From positions 1 through 20,112 of IMG/VR virus record IMGVR_UViG_3300034630_000008: a DNA stretch of 20,112 nucleotides; one strand, 5' to 3'. The position numbers and the translations under genes were made by a program. This document shows, piece after piece, positions 3,006 through 14,003 of the stretch. This DNA comes from a virus. The stretch's first letter is position 1, and each line of letters opens with the position of its first letter. A model generated the notes under the pieces. That model ran no database searches. It was not told where the DNA came from and saw only the letters and a program-made list of their open reading frames with translations.

Positions 3006-3257
3006 TCACTGCGCAGCGTCGTGAGCGCTGCACTCTTCTTTCGTCCAGACGCGGGCGCCGCATAGGCCCGCGACTGTGTCATCAATCTTGTCCTGGTCTG
3101 CCGGCGTCGCGCCGCGCGCGCCGATAAGCGACGTCCCGACGACCGACCTAGCCGTCAGGTTGAGTTGCTCTTTCGACGCATTGACCCGAGCCGTTGAGGT
3201 ACACCCAGCCCCGCTCACGGCACAGGCGACGATTAACGCGAGCGCGATCCGCTGCAT
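3006..3257 (-). CDS. Rz1-like small lipoprotein (putative outer-membrane spanin)
   Basis: 83 residues with a lipoprotein signal: hydrophobic IALALIVACAV followed by the lipobox SGAGC, Cys19 being the predicted lipidated residue. The mature part is about 65 residues with two further cysteines near the end. A GGAGAA ribosome site precedes the ATG at 3257. The gene starts inside the preceding membrane-protein gene and overlaps its last 110 bases in another frame, the arrangement known for Rz/Rz1 spanin pairs. Spanins disrupt the outer membrane in the final step of lysis. Unlike many Rz1 proteins it is not proline-rich, so the spanin assignment rests on context and lipobox. Confidence 0.65.
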   Translation of the reverse strand: MQRIALALIVACAVSGAGCTSTARVNASKEQLNLTARSVVGTSLIGARGATPADQDKIDDTVAGLCGARVWTKEECSAHDAAQ

Positions 3258-3432
3258 TGGTCAGTTCTCCGATTGCTTTCGTGGTGGCTGCTTGGGCTTC
3301 GGCGCGCTCGGCGGCCCTGCCCTCGTCTCGCGCCTCGGGCAGCAGCCAGACGGCGTTGGCCGCCTGCATGGCGAGGAAGACGACGAGGCCGCCGGCAGCA
3401 GCGCCAGCGGCCAGAGAGATACGGCTGAACAT
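3148..3432 (-). CDS. Rz-like membrane-anchored protein (putative inner-membrane spanin)
   Basis: 94 residues: an N-terminal hydrophobic anchor (about residues 7-30, LAAGAAAGGLVVFLAMQAAN), then an Ala/Glu/Arg-rich helix likely to form a coiled coil (about 33-70), and a short end with two cysteines (RLCRERGW, GQCVE). The ATG at 3432 shares its A with the TGA that closes the restored endolysin frame (TGATG) and has GAGG seven bases upstream, so translation is probably coupled. The inner-membrane spanin role is inferred from the topology and from the overlapping lipoprotein gene. Confidence 0.68.
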   Translation of the reverse strand: MFSRISLAAGAAAGGLVVFLAMQAANAVWLLPEARDEGRAAERAEAQAATTKAIGELTNAADRARVNRRLCRERGWVYLNGSGQCVERATQPDG

Positions 3433-4255
3433 CACCCAGCCTCGCGAACGCGCCGGATGAAGTAGTACAGCCCGACGCCGATGCCTGCGACGAGCGCAGC
3501 GGCCAGAGCCACTGCACCGGGCCATTGCCGGCAAATAGGGCACCGCCGGCTGACAGAAGGCCACCAAGCGGCCCCCATGCTTCCGGTTTCTTCAGCACCT
3601 CGCCGAGTCCGGTGTCGCGGCTGTCTGCCTTGGCGCCTGCTTCCGGCGGCGTCTGTGTCTTCTCGACGTCCGACCCGCTGGCATTGGCGGCCAGGCGCAG
3701 CGCATTGCCGATCACGCCCGGCTGGTCGGCCCACTGCTTCTTCGGATCCTTGCCGATGACACGGATCGTCCAGCCACGCCCGTTCACCGGGAACCCCGTC
3801 TGGGGATTGGTCAACGACCGCAGATAGGCCATGCGGGCCGCGCAGTGTTCGCGGATCACAGCGCCGACGCCACCCGGATACCGGCGGACCGCCGCAAGCG
3901 TCTGCTCGCCGACATGGCCATCCTCTCGGGCGCCGACGACCTTCTGCAGCGTCTTCACCGCGCGTGCGGGCCCGGAGTTCACGCCGAAGTCAAAGGCGGC
4001 GTAGTCGAGCCCAGGTGGAAGGAGGTCGCCACCGCTCTGGCCCCAGTAGGAGCGCCGATAAATGTCCTCGGCCTCCATCTTGGTCAGGCCTTTGACCTGG
4101 TCGGCAGTGACCGATGAGACGCCGCGGTGCGCCACGATCGTCGTATGCGTGATTCCGTACTTCGTCGGGCCGCCGCGATCGGAAGCACGATTAGAATAGC
4201 CGCCCTCATCCCCGAACATGAGTTCGAGAGCGACGGGAAGAGTTTCCCGAGCCAT
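3432..4255 (-). CDS. GH108 endolysin (N-acetylmuramidase) with frameshift before the C-terminal TM anchor
   Basis: The N-terminus carries the GH108 lysozyme signature FGDEGGYSNRASDRGGPTKY, with catalytic Glu17, followed by a peptidoglycan-binding_3 region (LDYAAFDFGVNSGPARA to about residue 125). A linker and a predicted C-terminal membrane segment (ALVAGIGVGLYYFIRRVREA) follow. The last part is in another frame: near 3509 the reading changes from QWLWPLRSS to ALAAALVAG, consistent with one missing G after the QW codons. Uncorrected, translation would run out of frame to 3233. The ATG at 4255 has AAGGTG six bases before it. The catalytic domain is whole, so the mutation mainly affects the anchor. 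A sequencing error cannot be excluded. Confidence 0.85.
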
Positions 4256-4446
4256 GTGGTTCACCTTGTTGTTGGGAAAAAGCGGACCGCGCTCAAATGC
4301 GCGACATCTTCACCGGCTGGAGCCATTCCAGCGGTAGGCGGTATTTCATGGCGATGTCCTTGTGGATTACTGAGGGGAATCTCGTCGTCTCGACAACTTG
4401 TCCGCGATCTGATTGTGTGCACTGCTCAAGCATCAGGAATGACAAA

Positions 4447-4701
4447 ATGCACCCAGAAACGCTCGCTTTGATCGGTCGAATTCTCTTTGGTGCCGCGTTA
4501 ATCCTGAATGTCGCGTGGGATCCGGCATCGAAACGTGTCTGCGACGACCCGTGGGGCCTAATCAGGTACCGGCGCTACTTCGCCACCAAATTGGGCAAAT
4601 GCCATGCTGCGTTGATAGGAGGGCTCTGGGTGACAGCCTTCTCGGTTGCCATCTGGGGGCTTGTCGTGGCGAAACAGCTGCAGAAGGCCGGTGTACATTA
4701 G
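4447..4701 (+). CDS. Small hypothetical membrane protein
   Basis: 84 residues with two hydrophobic segments, one at the N-terminus (LIGRILFGAALILNVAW) and one near the C-terminus (ALIGGLWVTAFSVAIWGLVV), joined by a basic loop (RYRRYFATKLGK). ATG at 4447 with AGGA eight bases upstream. It runs opposite to the lysis cassette and in the same direction as the next small membrane-protein gene and the methyltransferase, forming a rightward accessory cluster. No family recognised. A membrane protein beside an endolysin could be a holin, but its strand argues against membership of the late operon. Confidence 0.6.
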   Translation: MHPETLALIGRILFGAALILNVAWDPASKRVCDDPWGLIRYRRYFATKLGKCHAALIGGLWVTAFSVAIWGLVVAKQLQKAGVH

Positions 4702-5187: not shown

Positions 5188-5892
5188 GTGGCACATGATC
5201 TTTCCTTCCATTCGGGTGAGCGGCAGATTGCCGGAAGCTACGAAGACGTCCGTGCTGACCATCGCTTTCGCTACGAGTGGGCCGACAGGCTGATCCCCCC
5301 AGGTGGATTTGGATTAGACGCGTTCTGCGGCAACGGCTATGGCGCCTGGCTCTTAGGAAAACAGCGTCAAGTCTTGGCATTGGACGGCTCGAAGGAAGCG
5401 GTCGACTTCGCCACAGATCACTTTGGCGGCCCGCGGGTCCATTTCGCCCATGCTTACTGGCCGTTTGAACTCCCTCGCGAAGCTTTCGACTTTATCGTCT
5501 CACTGGAATCCGTCGAACATGTTCCAGATGGGGCGAACTTCTTTGCCGCATTGTCTTCCGCCCTGAAGCCGGGTGGTATCCTCATATACTCGACGCCGAA
5601 TGAGGACCTGCTTCCTCTGTCCGCGACTGGCAACCACTTCCACCATCGTCACTACACGACTGCTCAGGCCAAAGAACTGGCATTCGCTGAGGGGTTGGAA
5701 ACAATCACCTTCGCGGGTCAAAATACGTACGACATGACACCCGAAGGCAAACAAGGCGGCTTGCTGACCGAAGCCGAAATGGCTCTGCAGGACGGCGTGC
5801 CTGGCCAATTCAACATCTTCGCCTGCCGGAAACCGATGCCCAAGCCTCAAGGTGGGTGGTTCAAAAAAATGCTCCTGAGAGCCTTCGGCTAG
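5188..5892 (+). CDS. Class I SAM-dependent methyltransferase
   Basis: 234 residues with the standard Rossmann motifs: motif I DAFCGNGYG at 44-52, acidic post-I LALDGS at 63-68, motif II/III region FDFIVSLESVEHVPD at 100-114, and LKPGGILIYSTPN at 126-138. A His-rich GNHFHHRHY follows, as in methyltransf_11/23-type enzymes. Substrate unknown; small molecules, sugars and modified cell-surface components are all possible. The start is uncertain: GTG 5188 follows GGAG by nine bases, and the frame is open back to 5140 without ATG. It is the third gene of the rightward accessory cluster. The basic tail (WFKKMLLRAFG) could touch membranes or nucleic acid. Confidence 0.8.
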   Translation: MAHDLSFHSGERQIAGSYEDVRADHRFRYEWADRLIPPGGFGLDAFCGNGYGAWLLGKQRQVLALDGSKEAVDFATDHFGGPRVHFAHAYWPFELPREAFDFIVSLESVEHVPDGANFFAALSSALKPGGILIYSTPNEDLLPLSATGNHFHHRHYTTAQAKELAFAEGLETITFAGQNTYDMTPEGKQGGLLTEAEMALQDGVPGQFNIFACRKPMPKPQGGWFKKMLLRAFG

Positions 5893-6286: not shown

Positions 6287-6556
6287 TTACTGCTTCTTGA
6301 TGAAGGCGACGTTGTAAACATTGCCGTCGTCCAAGCGGCCGACCTCTTCAGCAAGCTCCCCGCCTCGGAAGAAGAACGGGGTGTAGCCGACACTCTTCAT
6401 TAGGTCGAAGTAACCGCGCTAATCTGTCTGCGAGACAGCCTGAAGCTGGCCAGGATGAACCTCCGACATGACGATGGGGGACTGCGTCGTAAGGATGCGC
6501 TCGGCGCCTCTCATGACGTAGGGTTCCGCTCCTTCGATATCGACCTTGAATACTCT
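6287..6556 (-). pseudogene. C-terminal part of an FkbM-family methyltransferase, with in-frame TAG
   Basis: The minus-strand frame reads VFKVDIEGAEPYVMRGAERI, then LTTQSPIVMSEVHPGQLQAV and SQTD, then TAG at 6419-6421, and continues in the same frame with RGYFDLMKSVGYTPFFF and GNVYNVAFIKKQ to TAA at 6287. The K-x-D-I-E-G-A-E motif followed by a P-I-V-x-S-E-V-H-P strand is the hallmark of the FkbM methyltransferase C-terminal half. The N-terminal half with the SAM glycine motif is gone, replaced by the start of a tape measure gene in another frame. Truncation and stop make it a pseudogene. Such enzymes often sit with phage tail genes. Confidence 0.8.
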
Positions 6557-6668
6557 CGACGGCGGCGCCGACACGCTTGGCTGCACCGGTAAGTTTGTCG
6601 AGCTTGCTGGTGGCCTGGTCAACGCCGGTCGTTTTGGCCTCGATGCCTAAGGAAGCGAGTTCAGTCAT
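6550..6668 (-). pseudogene. N-terminus of phage tail tape measure protein, truncated
   Basis: ATG 6668, with GGTGAAG close upstream, opens MTELASLGIEAKTTGVDQAT and SKLDKLTGAAKRVGAAVESI. This is the typical start of a lambda-like tape measure protein, which sets tail length and normally runs for many hundreds of residues. After about 40 codons the sequence switches, in another frame, to the middle of an FkbM-type methyltransferase. The tape measure body and the tail-tip and fibre genes that normally follow are therefore missing. It is placed as expected, downstream of the tail chaperone frames. Confidence 0.75.
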
Positions 6669-6723
6669 TCTTCACCAACCAGAGTATACAGGGCCGCAGA
6701 TCTACAACCAAAACGAGGATGTG

Positions 6724-6999
6724 ATGCGTTCCATATTGATGTTGCTGATGGTCGCCTCGTCGACGGGTACCGCGCTCGCGGCCTCTCCACAGGTAGTGGC
6801 CGGTGGCGGAGACCGGTACACGAACTTTGCGGCATGCGAGCAGAATCCAATTCAGGACGGCAAGTTTGGCGGTGACGCGTATAATTCCGCGCTCGACGAA
6901 TGCATGAAGGGCAATGGATACCGTCTTAAGGCGGAGTGTGGCAGCAAGCGTGACAGTGACTGCTACGAAAGAGGCACATTTTGGTGGCTAGGTCTCTGA
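6724..6999 (+). CDS. Small exported Cys-containing protein, opposite-strand insertion in tail operon
   Basis: 91 residues beginning with a signal peptide (MRSILMLLMVASSTGTALAA, likely cleaved after the Ala-rich end). The mature ~70 residues contain four cysteines (FAACEQ, LDECMK, KAECGS, SDCYE), which could form two disulfides in the periplasm. ATG 6724 is preceded by GAGG. It is transcribed against the tail operon, between the chaperone and tape measure genes that are normally adjacent, and its last 12 bases overlap the 3' end of the chaperone frame. This is the layout of a moron gene. No family recognised. Confidence 0.65.
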   Translation: MRSILMLLMVASSTGTALAASPQVVAGGGDRYTNFAACEQNPIQDGKFGGDAYNSALDECMKGNGYRLKAECGSKRDSDCYERGTFWWLGL

Positions 7000-7784: not shown

Positions 7785-8276
7785 TTAGATGACGGCCGGC
7801 TCGACGGTGAGGATCTCGGTATTGATCCCGATGTTAAAGGTGCGGCGAAGCACGTTGTCGCCTGCGCCGACCTGCTTTCGAGCCGACATCACGAGACCAC
7901 GGAAGTAGTCGACGCTATTGGAATAGGTCGCGTCCGGAGCGTCCTCGTATTCGACCTTGATATTGTATTGGAACTTCGTCTTCTCCGCGTCGCGAAGCGC
8001 CTGCTGGCCGGAGTCGAGCGGATCGTCTCCGACGACGAGAGCAAGAGTGCCGGCGTCCCGCGCACCCTTCAGGTGGCGAACACGGCCGTCAGACAACGAC
8101 TGGAAAGTTACGTCGGCGGATTCGTCGCCGATCTCGCCGCCGTCCTCAACTTCCTTGATCTCAACCCAAGTCAGGGCCTCAAAGGCTGCGATTGCGGCTG
8201 CATCGCCGCTTGCATACGGAATGGCGGTGGTCCCGCCGATGAAATAGCGGGCCCCAGTGGCCGTCGTGATCGTCAT
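7785..8276 (-). CDS. Phage major tail (tube) protein
   Basis: 163 residues, beta-rich, starting MTITTATGARYFIGGTTAIP. The middle reads TWVEIKEVEDGGEIGDESAD and later LVVGDDPLDSGQQALRDAEK, the pattern of lambda-like tail tube subunits (short N-terminal arm, then a beta sandwich with a W-x-E-I-K-E-V strand and a G-D-P-x-x-x-G-x-x-A-L helix). These polymerise around the tape measure to form the tail tube. Located between the tail terminator and chaperone genes, as in siphoviruses. ATG 8276 has AGGA eight bases upstream. Confidence 0.8.
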   Translation of the reverse strand: MTITTATGARYFIGGTTAIPYASGDAAAIAAFEALTWVEIKEVEDGGEIGDESADVTFQSLSDGRVRHLKGARDAGTLALVVGDDPLDSGQQALRDAEKTKFQYNIKVEYEDAPDATYSNSVDYFRGLVMSARKQVGAGDNVLRRTFNIGINTEILTVEPAVI

Positions 8277-8288
8277 GGGAGGTTTCCT

Positions 8289-8717
8289 TTAGGCTGCGAA
8301 GGTTTCGTATTGAATGGTCACCGGGACCATCAACGAGCCGTTGGCTGGCGGGAGCGGGATTGCATAGGTTTTGCGGTTGACCTTCACCTTCACGCCGCTC
8401 TCGTAGAGGATCAGGTCTTTCGGAAAATGGGCGACGATCTGGTCGGCGCGCTGCAACGGCACGATGATGCCGGTACCGCTGCTGTAGTGGACGTTGACTT
8501 GCATGATGCCGCGGTGCTGCTGGCGACCAGGCCCGACGGTGCGTGTTCTTGTCGGGCTCGGCAGAAACACCACCTCGAGGTAATCCTTCGGCTTCGTCTG
8601 CCCCGCCGGCGGGAACGTGACAAACGGCGCGGCGATTGGCTGGGCCGGCGTGAAGGTCAGCGACACCAGTCGGTCAATCAGCGCCTTGAAGATGTTCGCT
8701 TCCACACCTGTCGGCAT
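8289..8717 (-). CDS. Phage tail terminator-like protein (DUF4128 type)
   Basis: 142 residues from ATG 8717, which has AAGGA eight bases upstream; the open frame continues further 5' but that part looks non-coding. Sequence features are an N-terminal helix (FKALIDRLVSL), PFVTFPPAGQTKPKDYLEVV, then GIMQVNVHYSSGTGIIVPLQ and a strand/helix end. These fit the DUF4128 family of tail terminator proteins, which cap the tail tube and join it to the head. The gene lies 12 bases ahead of the tail tube gene. Confidence 0.72.
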   Translation of the reverse strand: MPTGVEANIFKALIDRLVSLTFTPAQPIAAPFVTFPPAGQTKPKDYLEVVFLPSPTRTRTVGPGRQQHRGIMQVNVHYSSGTGIIVPLQRADQIVAHFPKDLILYESGVKVKVNRKTYAIPLPPANGSLMVPVTIQYETFAA

Positions 8718-9372: not shown

Positions 9373-10410
9373 TCAGACAGCCTCGGCACGGAAACGGCGG
9401 ACGACGGCGCCGATGTGGTCGATCTTGTATTCCAACCGGCAACGGCAGCCGGAAATCTCGCTGACCGGGGCGCGTGGGTCGCCCGGATACCGGAGTAGCG
9501 CTCCGGACGGGCTCTGAAACACCTCGTCGATGCCGATCGATGTGCCGTTCAAGACACGGTGCGTATGACGGACGCGCTTGTCGCCTGCGTTTCGCCACGT
9601 CTTCGTCACGTCCTGCGCCTGGACCTTCCCGCCTTCGATCTGCTGGCGGATCGCTTCGTCACGAGCAGAGCCGAGCGCAATCACGGTTTCGGTGCGCGCC
9701 AGCATCTCACCACGGAGAAGCAGGTTTTTGTCGCGCAGCCGACCGATGATCCTCGCGAGGTCGTCGCCGGTTATCGGCTTACCCTCCCGCATGGCGGCTG
9801 CAATGGTGCGGTCGAAGCGCTTGTCACGGGTCTTGAGCTCGAAGTACTCGCCCATCAGCTTCGGATCACCGGAAGCAAGATTGACGCGCGCCCGCTCGAT
9901 GAACGCGATCTGGTGGCGCGTCAGACCGATGACGCCGCCCTCGCGCTGCTTGCCCACCCGATTGACGCGGCCGACAACGTCGAGCGCCGTCGAGCGAGGG
10001 CTCGCGCCCCGGGCAAGGCCTGCTTCCAGCGCCTGGCGGATGCCCTGCCGCTGATCGTCCGTGATGTGTGTGACCATCGTCGACGACAATTCGCGCAAAA
10101 TCGCCTCGGCGGCCGGGTTGCGGACCCCGAAGCGCCAGATGACGCGGTTGCCTTGCGGGTCTGCTACCTTCGGGAGCTCGGCGACTGCATTCGTGCCCCC
10201 GGCATTGAAGGCTTCCTGCAAGGCGATTTCGAGAGCCGAGAAAGCCTCGGGCTCGATCTGCATGGCCTCGATTGCTCCGCTGATGTCGCCGCGCTCGAGC
10301 CGTTCGATGACGCGCGCTAGGACGATGGACGCGCGTATCTCGTCTATTGCCTCGCGGAAAGCCGCGGCGAGCTTTGGCTCGTAGGTGAGATGCAGTGTAT
10401 GGAGGTTCAT
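9373..10410 (-). CDS. Phage head morphogenesis protein, Mu F / SPP1 gp7-like
   Basis: 345 residues. The N-terminal two thirds are helical and charged. The C-terminal domain has the Mu F features: RGEMLARTETVIALGSARDE at about 233-252, TWRNAGDKRVRHTH at 271-284, then LRYPGDPRAPVSEISGCRCR with the paired Cys322/Cys324. In Mu and SPP1 such proteins bind the portal and are packaged in few copies in the head. Usually the gene follows the portal gene; here it comes after a head-closure gene and a rightward accessory gene, with no portal nearby. ATG 10410 lacks a clear Shine-Dalgarno sequence. Confidence 0.8.
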   Translation of the reverse strand: MNLHTLHLTYEPKLAAAFREAIDEIRASIVLARVIERLERGDISGAIEAMQIEPEAFSALEIALQEAFNAGGTNAVAELPKVADPQGNRVIWRFGVRNPAAEAILRELSSTMVTHITDDQRQGIRQALEAGLARGASPRSTALDVVGRVNRVGKQREGGVIGLTRHQIAFIERARVNLASGDPKLMGEYFELKTRDKRFDRTIAAAMREGKPITGDDLARIIGRLRDKNLLLRGEMLARTETVIALGSARDEAIRQQIEGGKVQAQDVTKTWRNAGDKRVRHTHRVLNGTSIGIDEVFQSPSGALLRYPGDPRAPVSEISGCRCRLEYKIDHIGAVVRRFRAEAV

Positions 10411-10549
10411 GAGCCGTAGCGATCCAGGTTCGTGACCGTAAATTTGTTACAAGCGCCGACCTATTTGGACATCAGAGCGTCGAGGCCTTCAGCGCTATTC
10501 ACGAATGTTAGAATTTCAGTAGAGTAAGAGCCAAATACAGAGGCCACAC

Positions 10550-11311
10550 ATGAGCGAAGACACCCAAGATGGACGTCGTTCGATCTGGACACCCATTGTA
10601 CCCGTAATAGCCGGTGGTGCGCTGACACTGATCGGCGGTGTTATTGGTTCCTATTTCACGTTCATCAATGCTGGCCGCGATCTCGATATAAAGATGATCG
10701 AACTGAGCCTTAGTATCTTGGGCGGCGAGAAAGGTGGTGCGGACGATCCCGCTGAAGATGTTTCCTATGTGGAAGCCCGTCTGTTCGCACTTCGTACCCT
10801 GAAGAAATATTCAGGAGTTGAGATCGCAGACGAAGTTATGAGGCCGTGGGCGCAGGGCGGGCGGATTCCTTCCGCTGCCGCTGTTCTCCCTTACCCAAAT
10901 ACCACCGGATTACCATCTGGCGGTCTTGGTGGTGGCTTTGGTGGCTTCGGTGGCTTTGGTGGCCCTGGCGGCGGCCTGGGCAGTGGCGTTGGTGGTGGCT
11001 TCGGTGGCTTCGGTGGCTCTGGCCGCGGCCTGGGCAGTGGTTTTGGTCCCAGCGTTGGTGATTTTGCACCTTCGCCTATAGCCGAGATTCCGAATGGTTA
11101 TTCGCCCGTCGCTGCGATTGAAGGCAGTAACATCATCACCAAATCCGTCAAATCGAATGATCGCCTCATACTGGGAAAACTATCGGCTTACGATTGCCTC
11201 GGGTTTCGCGACGCTTACATCGAAAAACTCGTCACACCGGATGCTTTCAAAACTTGGAAAAGTTCATTTTGTAAGAGCACGGAGAGCAATAGGTCCGAGC
11301 GTCCCGATTGA
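10550..11311 (+). CDS. Membrane-anchored protein with tandem Gly/Phe-rich linker, opposite-strand cargo
   Basis: 253 residues: short polar N-terminus, one membrane segment at about 15-38 (PIVPVIAGGALTLIGGVIGS), a helical domain at 40-105 (DIKMIELSLSILGG, YVEARLFALRTLKKYSG), a Gly/Phe/Ser linker at 123-166 built of two near-identical DNA repeats, and a C-terminal domain with Cys216 and Cys241. ATG 10550 has AGAGG six bases upstream. It is transcribed against the head operon; its stop lies four bases from the stop of the head-closure gene (11316). No family recognised. A self-promoted moron gene, perhaps in exclusion or defence, is an inference from position only. Confidence 0.72.
   Translation: MSEDTQDGRRSIWTPIVPVIAGGALTLIGGVIGSYFTFINAGRDLDIKMIELSLSILGGEKGGADDPAEDVSYVEARLFALRTLKKYSGVEIADEVMRPWAQGGRIPSAAAVLPYPNTTGLPSGGLGGGFGGFGGFGGPGGGLGSGVGGGFGGFGGSGRGLGSGFGPSVGDFAPSPIAEIPNGYSPVAAIEGSNIITKSVKSNDRLILGKLSAYDCLGFRDAYIEKLVTPDAFKTWKSSFCKSTESNRSERPD
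10928..11044 (+). repeat. Tandem repeat encoding Gly/Phe-rich linker
   Basis: Two adjacent imperfect copies, 10928-10990 (63 bases) and 10991-11044 (54 bases). Both begin GGTGGTGGCTT(T/C)GGTGGCTTC and end CGGCCTGGGCAGTGG followed by a few bases. The length difference is nine bases, i.e. three codons, so the frame is kept. Inside each copy GGTGGCTTY is itself repeated. The array is prone to slippage, so linker length may vary between strains. Confidence 0.75.
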
Positions 11312-11315
11312 GTTG

Positions 11316-11678
11316 TCAATCATTCCTTCCTTGTACAATGAAGACGACAGCGGTCACGCCGTCGTACTTGTTCGGGTCGCTATTCGCTATGGCGTAGTCG
11401 GTACCGTTGGCGGTCACCACGTCGCCGACGGTCGGCTCGATCGCCAGCCCGACTGACGAGATGTAGATCTGCATGTCGCCGGTCTTGATCGTGGTGCCGT
11501 CGATGTAGCGGGCCTCGTAGGCCATCGGGACTAGCGTTGCCGGGTGTGACGTCACGGTGGGCTCGCCGCCGTAGACGTTGTCCGGAGGCGTCAGGCGTTT
11601 CACAGCACCTTCCTGGCCGAACTTGGCAATTAGGCGCCGTGCCGTGGTTTGCAGGCGCGCGTAGAGCGGGTTGACCAT
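11316..11678 (-). CDS. Head-closure / head-tail connector-like protein
   Basis: 120 residues, MVNPLYARLQTTARRLIAKF, then a Gly-containing beta-rich region (VPMAYEARYIDGTTIKTGDM, VGDVVTANGTDYAIANSDP) ending VTAVVFIVQGRND. N-terminal helix followed by a small beta barrel with an I-x-x-G-D motif is the plan of siphovirus head-closure proteins. It sits between the connector and the HK97 gp10/tail terminator genes in the expected order. ATG 11678 shares a base with the TGA of the upstream gene (TGATG). Assignment rests on layout and pattern. Confidence 0.65.
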   Translation of the reverse strand: MVNPLYARLQTTARRLIAKFGQEGAVKRLTPPDNVYGGEPTVTSHPATLVPMAYEARYIDGTTIKTGDMQIYISSVGLAIEPTVGDVVTANGTDYAIANSDPNKYDGVTAVVFIVQGRND

Positions 11679-11986
11679 CACACCACCAGCGCTCCTGGCC
11701 AGATCGGCGTTAGGAACGCCCAGAGCAGCCCCTCGATCGCGGTGACGACGGGCAAAAGGCTGCTCGGGTTCGTCAGCTCGAGGAAGGCAGCCTCGTAAGA
11801 GGCATTGATGATGGGGACCGGAACCTCGGTCGGCGGGATCGCCTCGCCGTAGTAGGTTGACGCTCCGGTGCGCGGCCATGCCCGCTCCTGTGCGTATCCA
11901 CCAATGCGATGGCCATTGAACCTCGGTTCGTACCGATCGATCACCAGAGAACCGCGTTGGCGCGCTGCGATCTCGGTATGGTTCAT
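11678..11986 (-). pseudogene. Truncated head-tail connector (DnaT-like/gp6-type), fused to a control-region start
   Basis: 102 residues. RGSLVIDRYEPRFNGHRIGG, ERAWPRTGA, then PVPIINASYEAAFLELTNPS-SLLP is the central part of the phage connector family often labelled DnaT-like (motif W-P-R-T-G, x-I-P-x-x-x-x-P). That family usually begins with about 60 further residues, missing here, and usually has some 35-45 residues between SLLP and the final helix; here SLLPVVT runs straight into AIEGLLWAFL. The ATG at 11986 lies directly after an operator-containing promoter, so the first ~8 codons may come from another gene start. I read it as a connector with a 5' and probably an internal deletion, still open and possibly transcribed. 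Confidence 0.65.
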
Positions 11987-12027
11987 ACCTTATAAGGTTC
12001 AAATCATACCCTATCATGTCAAGCGCA
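11987..12027 (-). promoter_or_regulatory. Leftward promoter with repressor operator O1
   Basis: On the minus strand: TTGACA (12022-12017), six bases, then the 15-base operator GGTATGATTTGAACC (12010-11996), then TTATAAGGT and the ATG at 11986. The spacing from -35 to operator is the same as at the early promoter near 14134. The ACCTTATAAGGT at 11987-11998 is itself a perfect 12-base palindrome. The exact -10 is uncertain (AACCTT at 17 bases or TTATAA at 21). Confidence 0.6.
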
Positions 12028-12728: not shown

Positions 12729-12963
12729 GCTCTTGCTCCCCTGAGCGCTTGAATTGGGCTAAGCACGGCGGTAAAATGAGAACGAAACAAGAACAATGTT
12801 AGGGATCAATTCGCATAGGTTAACAGCCACAGGATGTAGCACCGACTCTCTGAAAAGCGCCGCTGTCTTGTGTTGCGCAGCTTGGATTGCGCACAACGGA
12901 ATGTGACTACCCGCCAATATTTCTTAATAGATGGGAGTCAGTTGGGGTGATAGTGTTGTTGTC

Positions 12964-13605
12964 ATGAACGACAAAACGACAAAGAACGTTATTGCCGCGT
13001 TTACCGAAGAGCAGGTGGAACGTCTTACCGGTGTCACTGTGCGCCAGCTGCGCACATGGGACCGTACGAAGTTCTTTGTCCCCAGCTTGGCCTATGAAGA
13101 CCGTAGCCGCCCGTACGCCAGGCTATACTCGTTCCGCGATTTGGCGTGCTTGAAAGTGCTCAACGCGCTTCGGAACGAATCGAGTGTTTCACTCCAGCAC
13201 CTTCGAGAAGTTAAGAAGAAACTGGCCCATTTGGGTGATGACGCATGGGCAAAGACTACGCTTTATGTGCTCAACAAAAAGGTCATCTTCGACAATCCAG
13301 AGACGAAATCTAAGGAAGAAATTGTTTCTGGACAGGGCATTCTACAAATCCCGTTGAAAGTCGTCACCGGCGAACTGCAGAGCGCTGTGGATGCCATGCG
13401 CCGGCGCGACGAAAGCTCGGTCGGCAAGATTGAACGCAAGCGCGGGACTGGAGCGGCCGCCACGATTTCTGGCACGCGTATCCCCGTGTCTGCTGTTAAG
13501 GCATTTTCGGATGCCGGCTACAGCATCGATGAAATCCTGAAGGAGTACCCCACCCTGGATCGCAACGACGTCATCGCGGCCATCAATTACGTGGATGCCG
13601 CTTGA
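12964..13605 (+). CDS. MerR-like HTH / DUF433 antitoxin
   Basis: 213 residues. The N-terminal ~70 form a MerR-type winged helix (FTEEQVERLTGVTVRQLRTW, then SRPYARLYSFRDLACLKVLN). The C-terminal ~55 match DUF433 (TISGTRIPVSAVKAFSDAGY, SIDEILKEYPTLDRNDVIAA), a domain found in predicted antitoxins next to PIN-like DUF5615 toxins. It overlaps the toxin gene by four bases (TTGA). The start is either ATG 12964 (used here) or ATG 12931; neither has an ideal ribosome site. A dyad TTGTG-N19-CACAA containing two TTGCGCA repeats lies upstream near 12870-12897 and may be its own operator. Fusion of both domains in one antitoxin is a notable architecture. Confidence 0.75.
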   Translation: MNDKTTKNVIAAFTEEQVERLTGVTVRQLRTWDRTKFFVPSLAYEDRSRPYARLYSFRDLACLKVLNALRNESSVSLQHLREVKKKLAHLGDDAWAKTTLYVLNKKVIFDNPETKSKEEIVSGQGILQIPLKVVTGELQSAVDAMRRRDESSVGKIERKRGTGAAATISGTRIPVSAVKAFSDAGYSIDEILKEYPTLDRNDVIAAINYVDAA

Positions 13606-14003
13606 AAGCACCGAAGAAACCTTTGCGATTTTTCTTGGATGCAAGCGTCCCCGATTCTGTTGGCAAGGTTTTATCGGATGCAGGTTTCCCGGTGATTTAC
13701 CACCGAGAAGCGCTCGCAGACGGCACGAAAGACCCTGTCGTCTGCCAAACCGCAATTGAGAATGAGGCTGTCCTTGTCGCCGTCGATGCCGACATGAAGC
13801 AGCTTACGAAGCGGTTTGGGAAAACTGAGGACCGCTTCCAAAAGCTGGACCTCCTGATGTGTTCCTGCAACGCAGTGATGACATCGAAGCGTGTGGCCCA
13901 GGCACTTAGCCTGATCGAGCACGAGTGGCGCGAAAGCCAAACCAAAACTTCCAAGCGACTTTGGGTGGAGATCACCAACCATCACATCCTGACGTACCGG
14001 TAG
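13602..14003 (+). CDS. DUF5615 PIN-like toxin
   Basis: 133 residues with PIN-like acidic positions: FFLDASVPDSVGKVLSDAGF (Asp13), the DGTKDPVV segment (Asp44) and VLVAVDADMKQL (Asp62, Asp64). DUF5615 proteins are predicted Mg-dependent RNases paired with DUF433 antitoxins. The start is TTG 13602, overlapping the antitoxin stop; GGA lies eight bases upstream and no nearby ATG exists, so expression probably depends on coupling to the antitoxin. The family normally ends soon after the second aspartate pair; here about 65 extra residues follow. A strong terminator comes 37 bases after the stop. Toxicity is inferred from family only. Confidence 0.72.
   Translation: MKAPKKPLRFFLDASVPDSVGKVLSDAGFPVIYHREALADGTKDPVVCQTAIENEAVLVAVDADMKQLTKRFGKTEDRFQKLDLLMCSCNAVMTSKRVAQALSLIEHEWRESQTKTSKRLWVEITNHHILTYR

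Follow-up and report, generated by a model that had tools for sequence, protein, structure and literature searches.

We read the gene at 10550-11311 of the window (the whole stretch of DNA analyzed, a 20.1-kb IMG/VR virus record) as a moron at the Hc1/head-morphogenesis site of a prophage, encoding a predicted membrane protein of the host envelope whose favored function is exclusion of DNA entry. The probability of this reading as a whole is put at roughly 0.4. Morons are a well-known class (Juhala, Hendrix and colleagues), and assignment of the gene to it as a moron cassette is very likely correct. An envelope-located lysogenic function is rated somewhat better than even, and superinfection exclusion, the favored function, is a guess at odds clearly below even. 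New here are a small protein family for residues ∼16-100 of the product and a cargo hotspot of phiLM21-like prophages.

The gene and its flanks

The window DNA and its proteins match Sinorhizobium/Ensifer prophages, and the genes follow the same order as in phage phiLM21. The nearest head genes are those of S. meliloti Ak57 pSymB, with amino-acid identities of 82% for head morphogenesis and 81% for Hc1. Features in and around the gene were assigned as follows.

9373..10410, minus strand: head morphogenesis (Mu gpF-like), the right flank, downstream in the head operon (phrog_3517, E 8e-126)
10411..10549, plus strand: 5′ leader of the putative cargo gene, from the head-morphogenesis start to the cargo ATG, including the Shine-Dalgarno-like AGAGG
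10550..11311, plus strand: putative cargo (moron) gene for a predicted 253-aa single-pass membrane protein (protein-level relative; GC3)
10586..10663, plus strand: predicted N-terminal membrane helix, residues ∼13-38 (hydropathy peak; helix in a low-confidence model)
10670..10858, plus strand: helical family domain, residues ∼41-103 (five-member alignment; N-domain model)
10910..11047, plus strand: Gly/Phe-rich linker, residues ∼121-166 (54-nt unit repeated at 10939-11047)
11048..11308, plus strand: C-terminal region, residues 167-253, with C216 and C241
11316..11678, minus strand: head closure Hc1, the left flank, upstream in the head operon (phrog_161, E 3e-26)
11679..11986, minus strand: head-tail adaptor Ad1 with the N-terminal ∼30 residues missing (phrog_477 from profile position 49; comparison with phiLM21 Ad1)

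The open reading frame runs on the plus strand from an ATG start to a TGA stop, beginning 139 nt from the start of the head-morphogenesis gene. The initial annotation had described it as opposed to the head genes, equipped with its own ribosome site and ending four bases from a head gene's stop, and all of this held: both neighbors lie on the minus strand, AGAGG occupies 10539-10543, 6 nt ahead of the ATG, and 4 nt separate the last base of the gene from the outer base (11316) of the opposite-strand Hc1 stop codon. The anatomy proposed for the product was likewise recovered. Kyte-Doolittle hydropathy gave one hydrophobic helix (peak 1.93, residues 16-34) and no second hydrophobic segment. The Gly/Phe stretch (residues ∼121-165) is 60% Gly and 13% Phe, and its DNA carries a tandem duplication with a 54-nt period (2.0 copies, 49/54 identical, score 183) and 9-nt sub-repeats. 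Both of the protein's cysteines, C216 and C241, lie in the end that had been called Cys-bearing.

The base composition of the gene is foreign to its neighbors, as is typical of morons. GC3 is 0.50 versus 0.79-0.81 in Hc1, head morphogenesis and neck, and regional GC drops to about 0.48-0.53 at the gene, outside the repeat. A scan for the E. coli-type consensus returned no sigma-70 promoter upstream of the gene, and terminator-like matches near 11350 fall inside the Hc1 coding sequence. The leader is similar to none of the fetched loci, among which a promoter region shared with other cargo cassettes was not found.

A cargo hotspot between Hc1 and head morphogenesis

By comparison of related prophages, the Hc1/head-morphogenesis site is a cargo hotspot of the phiLM21-like group. 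Eighty IMG/VR loci around Hc1 were collected, 75 of which also contain head morphogenesis; these 75, together with the window, phiLM21, RHph_TM3_3_3, RHph_N28_2 and S. meliloti AK83, gave 80 intervals. At least one reverse-strand gene is present in 45/80 intervals, and the reverse-strand genes fall into eight mutually unrelated families, four of which have a membrane helix. Because many loci derive from closely related strains, the number of families is a better measure than the interval count. The families, all in reverse orientation, are listed here.

Lipocalin: 20/80 intervals
47-aa one-TM protein: often alongside the lipocalin, sometimes as decayed remains
80-aa two-TM protein: n = 4
122-aa protein: n = 4
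97-aa protein: n = 3
190-aa protein: n = 1
139-aa TM protein: n = 1
253-aa window protein: n = 1

The other cargo genes share the insertion site and orientation of the window gene but are unrelated to it in sequence, and the 253-aa protein is a singleton, with no relative among the 80 sampled prophage loci. Other intervals hold small plus-strand genes.

Empty sites were also found. In loci L074 and L089 the two flanking head genes share 4 nt (AATGA), and in L102 they stand 8 nt apart; the window gene is thus an extra gene between genes that are adjacent in relatives. The initial annotation's view of an inserted, membrane-anchored gene of lysogenic type finds good support in the empty sites in L074 and L089, the foreign composition and the reverse-strand hotspot. 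Counting distinct intervals, 60/62 are at least 150 nt at this junction, whereas the junction that follows in the operon, between head morphogenesis and neck, gave 0/60. Note that the preceding junction, Ad1 to Hc1, is variable too and in RHph_N28_2 holds a reverse gene, so the cargo region may exceed one junction. Ad1 of RHph_N28_2 has a membrane-protein gene on each side (L005:6796-7254 and 7812-8486, minus strand), both in reverse to the head operon.

The spacers between stacked genes carry traces of the head genes. In S. meliloti AK83 a degenerate Hc1 3′ end (135 nt, 76%) lies beside a degenerate head-morphogenesis 5′ end (68 nt, 82%) between the lipocalin and 47-aa genes. Mid-interval remnants of the head-morphogenesis 5′ end were detected in 20 intervals and of the Hc1 3′ end in 6, all in head-gene sense; head-morphogenesis 5′ matches near the extreme end of an interval were discounted because they represent the normal gene start. 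Controls using the minus strand and reversed sequence gave 0 matches, and those using segments from elsewhere in the two head genes gave 2 and 0. The simplest reading, which this pattern suggests, is that cassettes carrying both head-gene ends were stacked by recombination in those ends. Within the window's own interval no flanking head-gene remnants were detected, and the interval consists of one cassette. Degenerate head-gene ends between stacked cargo genes can be seen at L011:11624-11844 and in L084, L093, L097, L124 and L125.

One report describes phiLM21-like prophages as the most prevalent in S. meliloti, with more than half of their ORFs lacking a function and with lipocalins of no known role (PMC12429752). 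No description of the Hc1/head-morphogenesis insertion site was found in the passages searched on sinorhizobial prophages (PMC12429752, PMC5537653).

Since related prophages carry many different passenger genes at this spot, the window gene is probably host-serving cargo, perhaps one that blocks rival phages, and not a virion component. An anti-phage role is not required of cargo at this site, as the presence of a lipocalin shows. Like that lipocalin, the gene could be lysogenic cargo whose task at the host envelope is unrelated to phage exclusion and concerns stress tolerance, surface properties or symbiosis. This is the strongest of the alternatives and rather unlikely: it draws on the lipocalin's hold on the same slot, on the reported lipocalins without known role and on the plasmid location of two members of the protein family described below, but no positive link of the window protein to any host process was found.

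The prophage itself is defective, judging by what the window retains. The truncated Ad1 gene (region 11679-12016) abuts the plus-strand repressor region, with the junction just before the repressor, and the 20.1-kb window yielded no gene for terminase, portal or capsid; the cut Ad1 and the missing genes indicate an internal deletion or rearrangement. A tape measure ORF at 6348-6668 (minus strand) encodes 106 aa, of which only the N-terminal ∼50 residues are recognizable. The cargo ORF is still open in this setting, with its truncated Ad1 and tape measure fragment. A passenger ORF without current function, recently captured or decaying in a cryptic prophage, would account for a singleton at its site in a defective prophage, with a repeat-expanded linker and no promoter found. 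Such a gene would not, however, be expected to keep 253 codons open, a Shine-Dalgarno site and a conserved family domain while the surrounding phage genes are truncated, and we regard this explanation as improbable.

Other parts of the window are of separate interest. Plus-strand ORFs at 4297-4701, 5188-5892 and 6577-6999, one with a weak methyltransferase match, lie within the minus-strand late region and are possible additional reverse cargo. On the lysogeny side, a MerR-like HTH fused to DUF433 (12931-13605, plus strand) is followed, with a 4 nt overlap, by a DUF5615/PIN-like protein (13602-14003); by its domains the pair at 12931-14003 resembles either a type II toxin-antitoxin system or a regulator with a nuclease.

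A small family of membrane-anchored helical domains

The window protein matches nothing in Pfam, PHROGs, NCBIfam, PADLOC or PDB sequences. Homology to a virion or housekeeping family, which had been named in advance as a finding that would speak against the proposed role, was thus not encountered in Pfam, PHROGs, NCBIfam or PDB sequences, and a known defense family was set aside in the same way on the PADLOC result. Relatives of the whole 253-aa protein were absent from the viral and genome contigs searched.

At the N-terminus, the match for residues 16-89 is a 144-aa ORF that carries no annotation in Labrenzia phage vB_LagS-V1 (PP058680.1, 19026-19460, plus strand; L002:11977-12411), with 36% identity over 74 aa and E 1e-4 in a 2.3-Gb phage collection. 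Within the fetched loci the link to the Labrenzia ORF (LabX) stands at E 1e-8, and comparison without the membrane helix gave z = 12 over shuffles. A relative at E 1e-4 and z = 12 for the membrane-free part argue that the window ORF is more than a chance frame. The next link in the chain leads from the Labrenzia ORF to a Burkholderia ambifaria plasmid protein, which also matches a Pseudomonas syringae plasmid protein and, strongly (E ∼1e-18), a 175-aa prophage protein encoded in reverse to the late genes (IMGVR_UViG_2814123407_000001, L049:10232-10759). A profile of the other four members scored the window protein at 15.7 bits versus 7.5 for the top of 4000 shuffled copies. When all five members were used in a six-frame profile search of 137 fetched loci, only members were recovered (next match E 1.5); DNA-motif scans of IMG/VR for the family signature gave mainly chance matches, the L049 gene being the sole true member. 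On these alignments, residues ∼16-100 belong to a small uncharacterized family comprising the Labrenzia phage ORF, another prophage and two plasmids.

The shared region consists of a membrane helix, a helix [IV]K/RD.D..M.[EA]..IL, a short variable loop and a helix R..A...[LI]...S.V, and the helical domain has the signature RD.DIKM.EL..IL ... AR..A...L..YSGV in the five-member alignment. The window protein shows the same succession of membrane helix and signature domain. C-terminal of the shared region the members differ from one another throughout, and residues 167-253 of the window protein have no detectable homolog. The initial annotation knew of no family for this protein, which stands for curated families and gives way for the N-terminal domain; the remote homology search that it proposed for both ends succeeded for the N-terminal domain, with relatives at E 1e-4 onward, and yielded nothing for the C-terminal region. 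In the structure prediction, also proposed, the whole-protein model has a pLDDT of 39 and is disordered at the Gly/Phe stretch, the N-domain model has a pLDDT of 60 overall (blocks of about 58-82 over residues 41-100), and fold searches with either model gave no match at E ≤ 0.001.

Two of the relatives can be compared with the window gene in their genomic setting. The Labrenzia ORF has a membrane helix followed by the same helical domain, but it lacks the Gly/Phe linker, ends in an o-spanin-like C-terminus and follows the endolysin gene, with which it belongs to the late strand. The L049 gene resembles the window gene in its membrane helix and helical domain, its antisense orientation to the late genes and its moron-like placement; it differs in lacking the linker and in lying just beyond lysozyme, Rz spanin and DNA methyltransferase genes.

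Charges on either side of the membrane helix of the window protein do not settle its topology. The C-terminal module of the Labrenzia relative also ends a lipobox-bearing, o-spanin-like ORF of Rhizobium sp. T136 (52%, E 6e-8). That ORF lies beside lysis genes and shares part of its length with an i-spanin-like ORF. A periplasmic location is expected for the common module, which makes N-in/C-out the likely orientation of the family; in that orientation the helical domain, linker and two cysteines of the window protein would be periplasmic. Most likely, then, the helical domain faces the periplasm; inner-membrane location, C-out topology and expression in the lysogen are what we infer for the protein. 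A module of ∼44 aa, G..R.TPS....F..AND..FA.Q.AAHN..C....C.K, is found at L002:12277-12411 and L030:4917-5135, common to the end of a membrane-anchored phage protein and an o-spanin-like lipoprotein; it is possibly a domain swap between inner- and outer-membrane lysis proteins.

The closest relative is a late-strand gene that follows an endolysin gene and has an end module common to o-spanin-like ORFs. This lysis-side setting raises the question of whether the window protein is a lysis accessory, membrane-anchored, periplasm-facing and a partner of spanins or endolysin. We consider this quite improbable. The window gene lies between head genes, is oriented against the late operon and is well separated from the lysis genes (∼3.0-4.3 kb), among which the window already has an endolysin and spanin-like ORFs. 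The resemblance of its C-terminus to the o-spanin module (ND......L.A...C) is not significant over shuffles (z 0.9-2.7), and this assignment was rejected. Overlapping i-spanin-like and lipoprotein o-spanin-like ORFs (lipobox-like SGAGC), recognized by eye, lie at 3006-3567 (minus strand) downstream of the window's endolysin. Still more doubtful is a toxic role, in which the protein, as a membrane toxin or an abortive-infection effector, would injure the membrane on phage infection: one plasmid relative has a zeta toxin and an S-4TM effector with nucleotidyltransferase in its vicinity, but the window gene is a single-gene insert with no partner or antitoxin gene in its cassette and no PADLOC match.

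Exclusion of DNA entry as the favored function

The reading that we prefer is a moron whose product excludes incoming DNA, and it can be laid out in steps. A cassette would have been inserted antisense to the late genes at the recurrent cargo site of a phiLM21-like Sinorhizobium/Ensifer prophage. Its product would be a single-pass inner-membrane protein with the helical domain toward the periplasm, a flexible Gly/Phe linker and a two-Cys C-terminal part, and it would act at the host envelope during lysogeny. In the favored mechanism, DNA entry of superinfecting long-tailed phages would be hindered at the inner membrane, as by HK97 gp15.

Two precedents exist for interference with DNA entry: HK97 gp15 is encoded by a moron and predicted to lie in the inner membrane, and for P22 SieA the inner-membrane location is proven (PMC10883804). 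Like the window protein, as predicted, both are prophage-encoded membrane proteins, and gp15 is also a moron product; neither a sequence nor a fold link to them was found. Homology to exclusion or defense proteins was not found in PHROGs, Pfam, NCBIfam, PADLOC or the fold searches. Because the homology features of these classes were not found, the window protein was assigned neither to the superinfection exclusion proteins nor to the spanins. The superinfection exclusion or anti-phage role suggested by the initial annotation is plausible from anatomy and position; the negative PADLOC result, the lipocalin in the same slot and the lysis-side Labrenzia relative with its o-spanin-like C-terminus count against it. 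A more ambitious proposal would make the junction a dedicated cargo dock that accumulates lysogeny genes by flank recombination and, at the same time, the window protein a new exclusion factor, with a membrane-anchored periplasmic helical domain and a self-associating Gly/Phe linker that obstructs DNA entry. The two together are a long shot.

For the phiLM21-like group, a fixed cargo site with empty sites, stacked cassettes and flank remnants provides a simple handle for lysogeny genes, and any gene antisense between Hc1 and head morphogenesis becomes a lysogeny-gene candidate. The window protein, for its part, helps define an uncharacterized membrane-domain family common to phages and plasmids.
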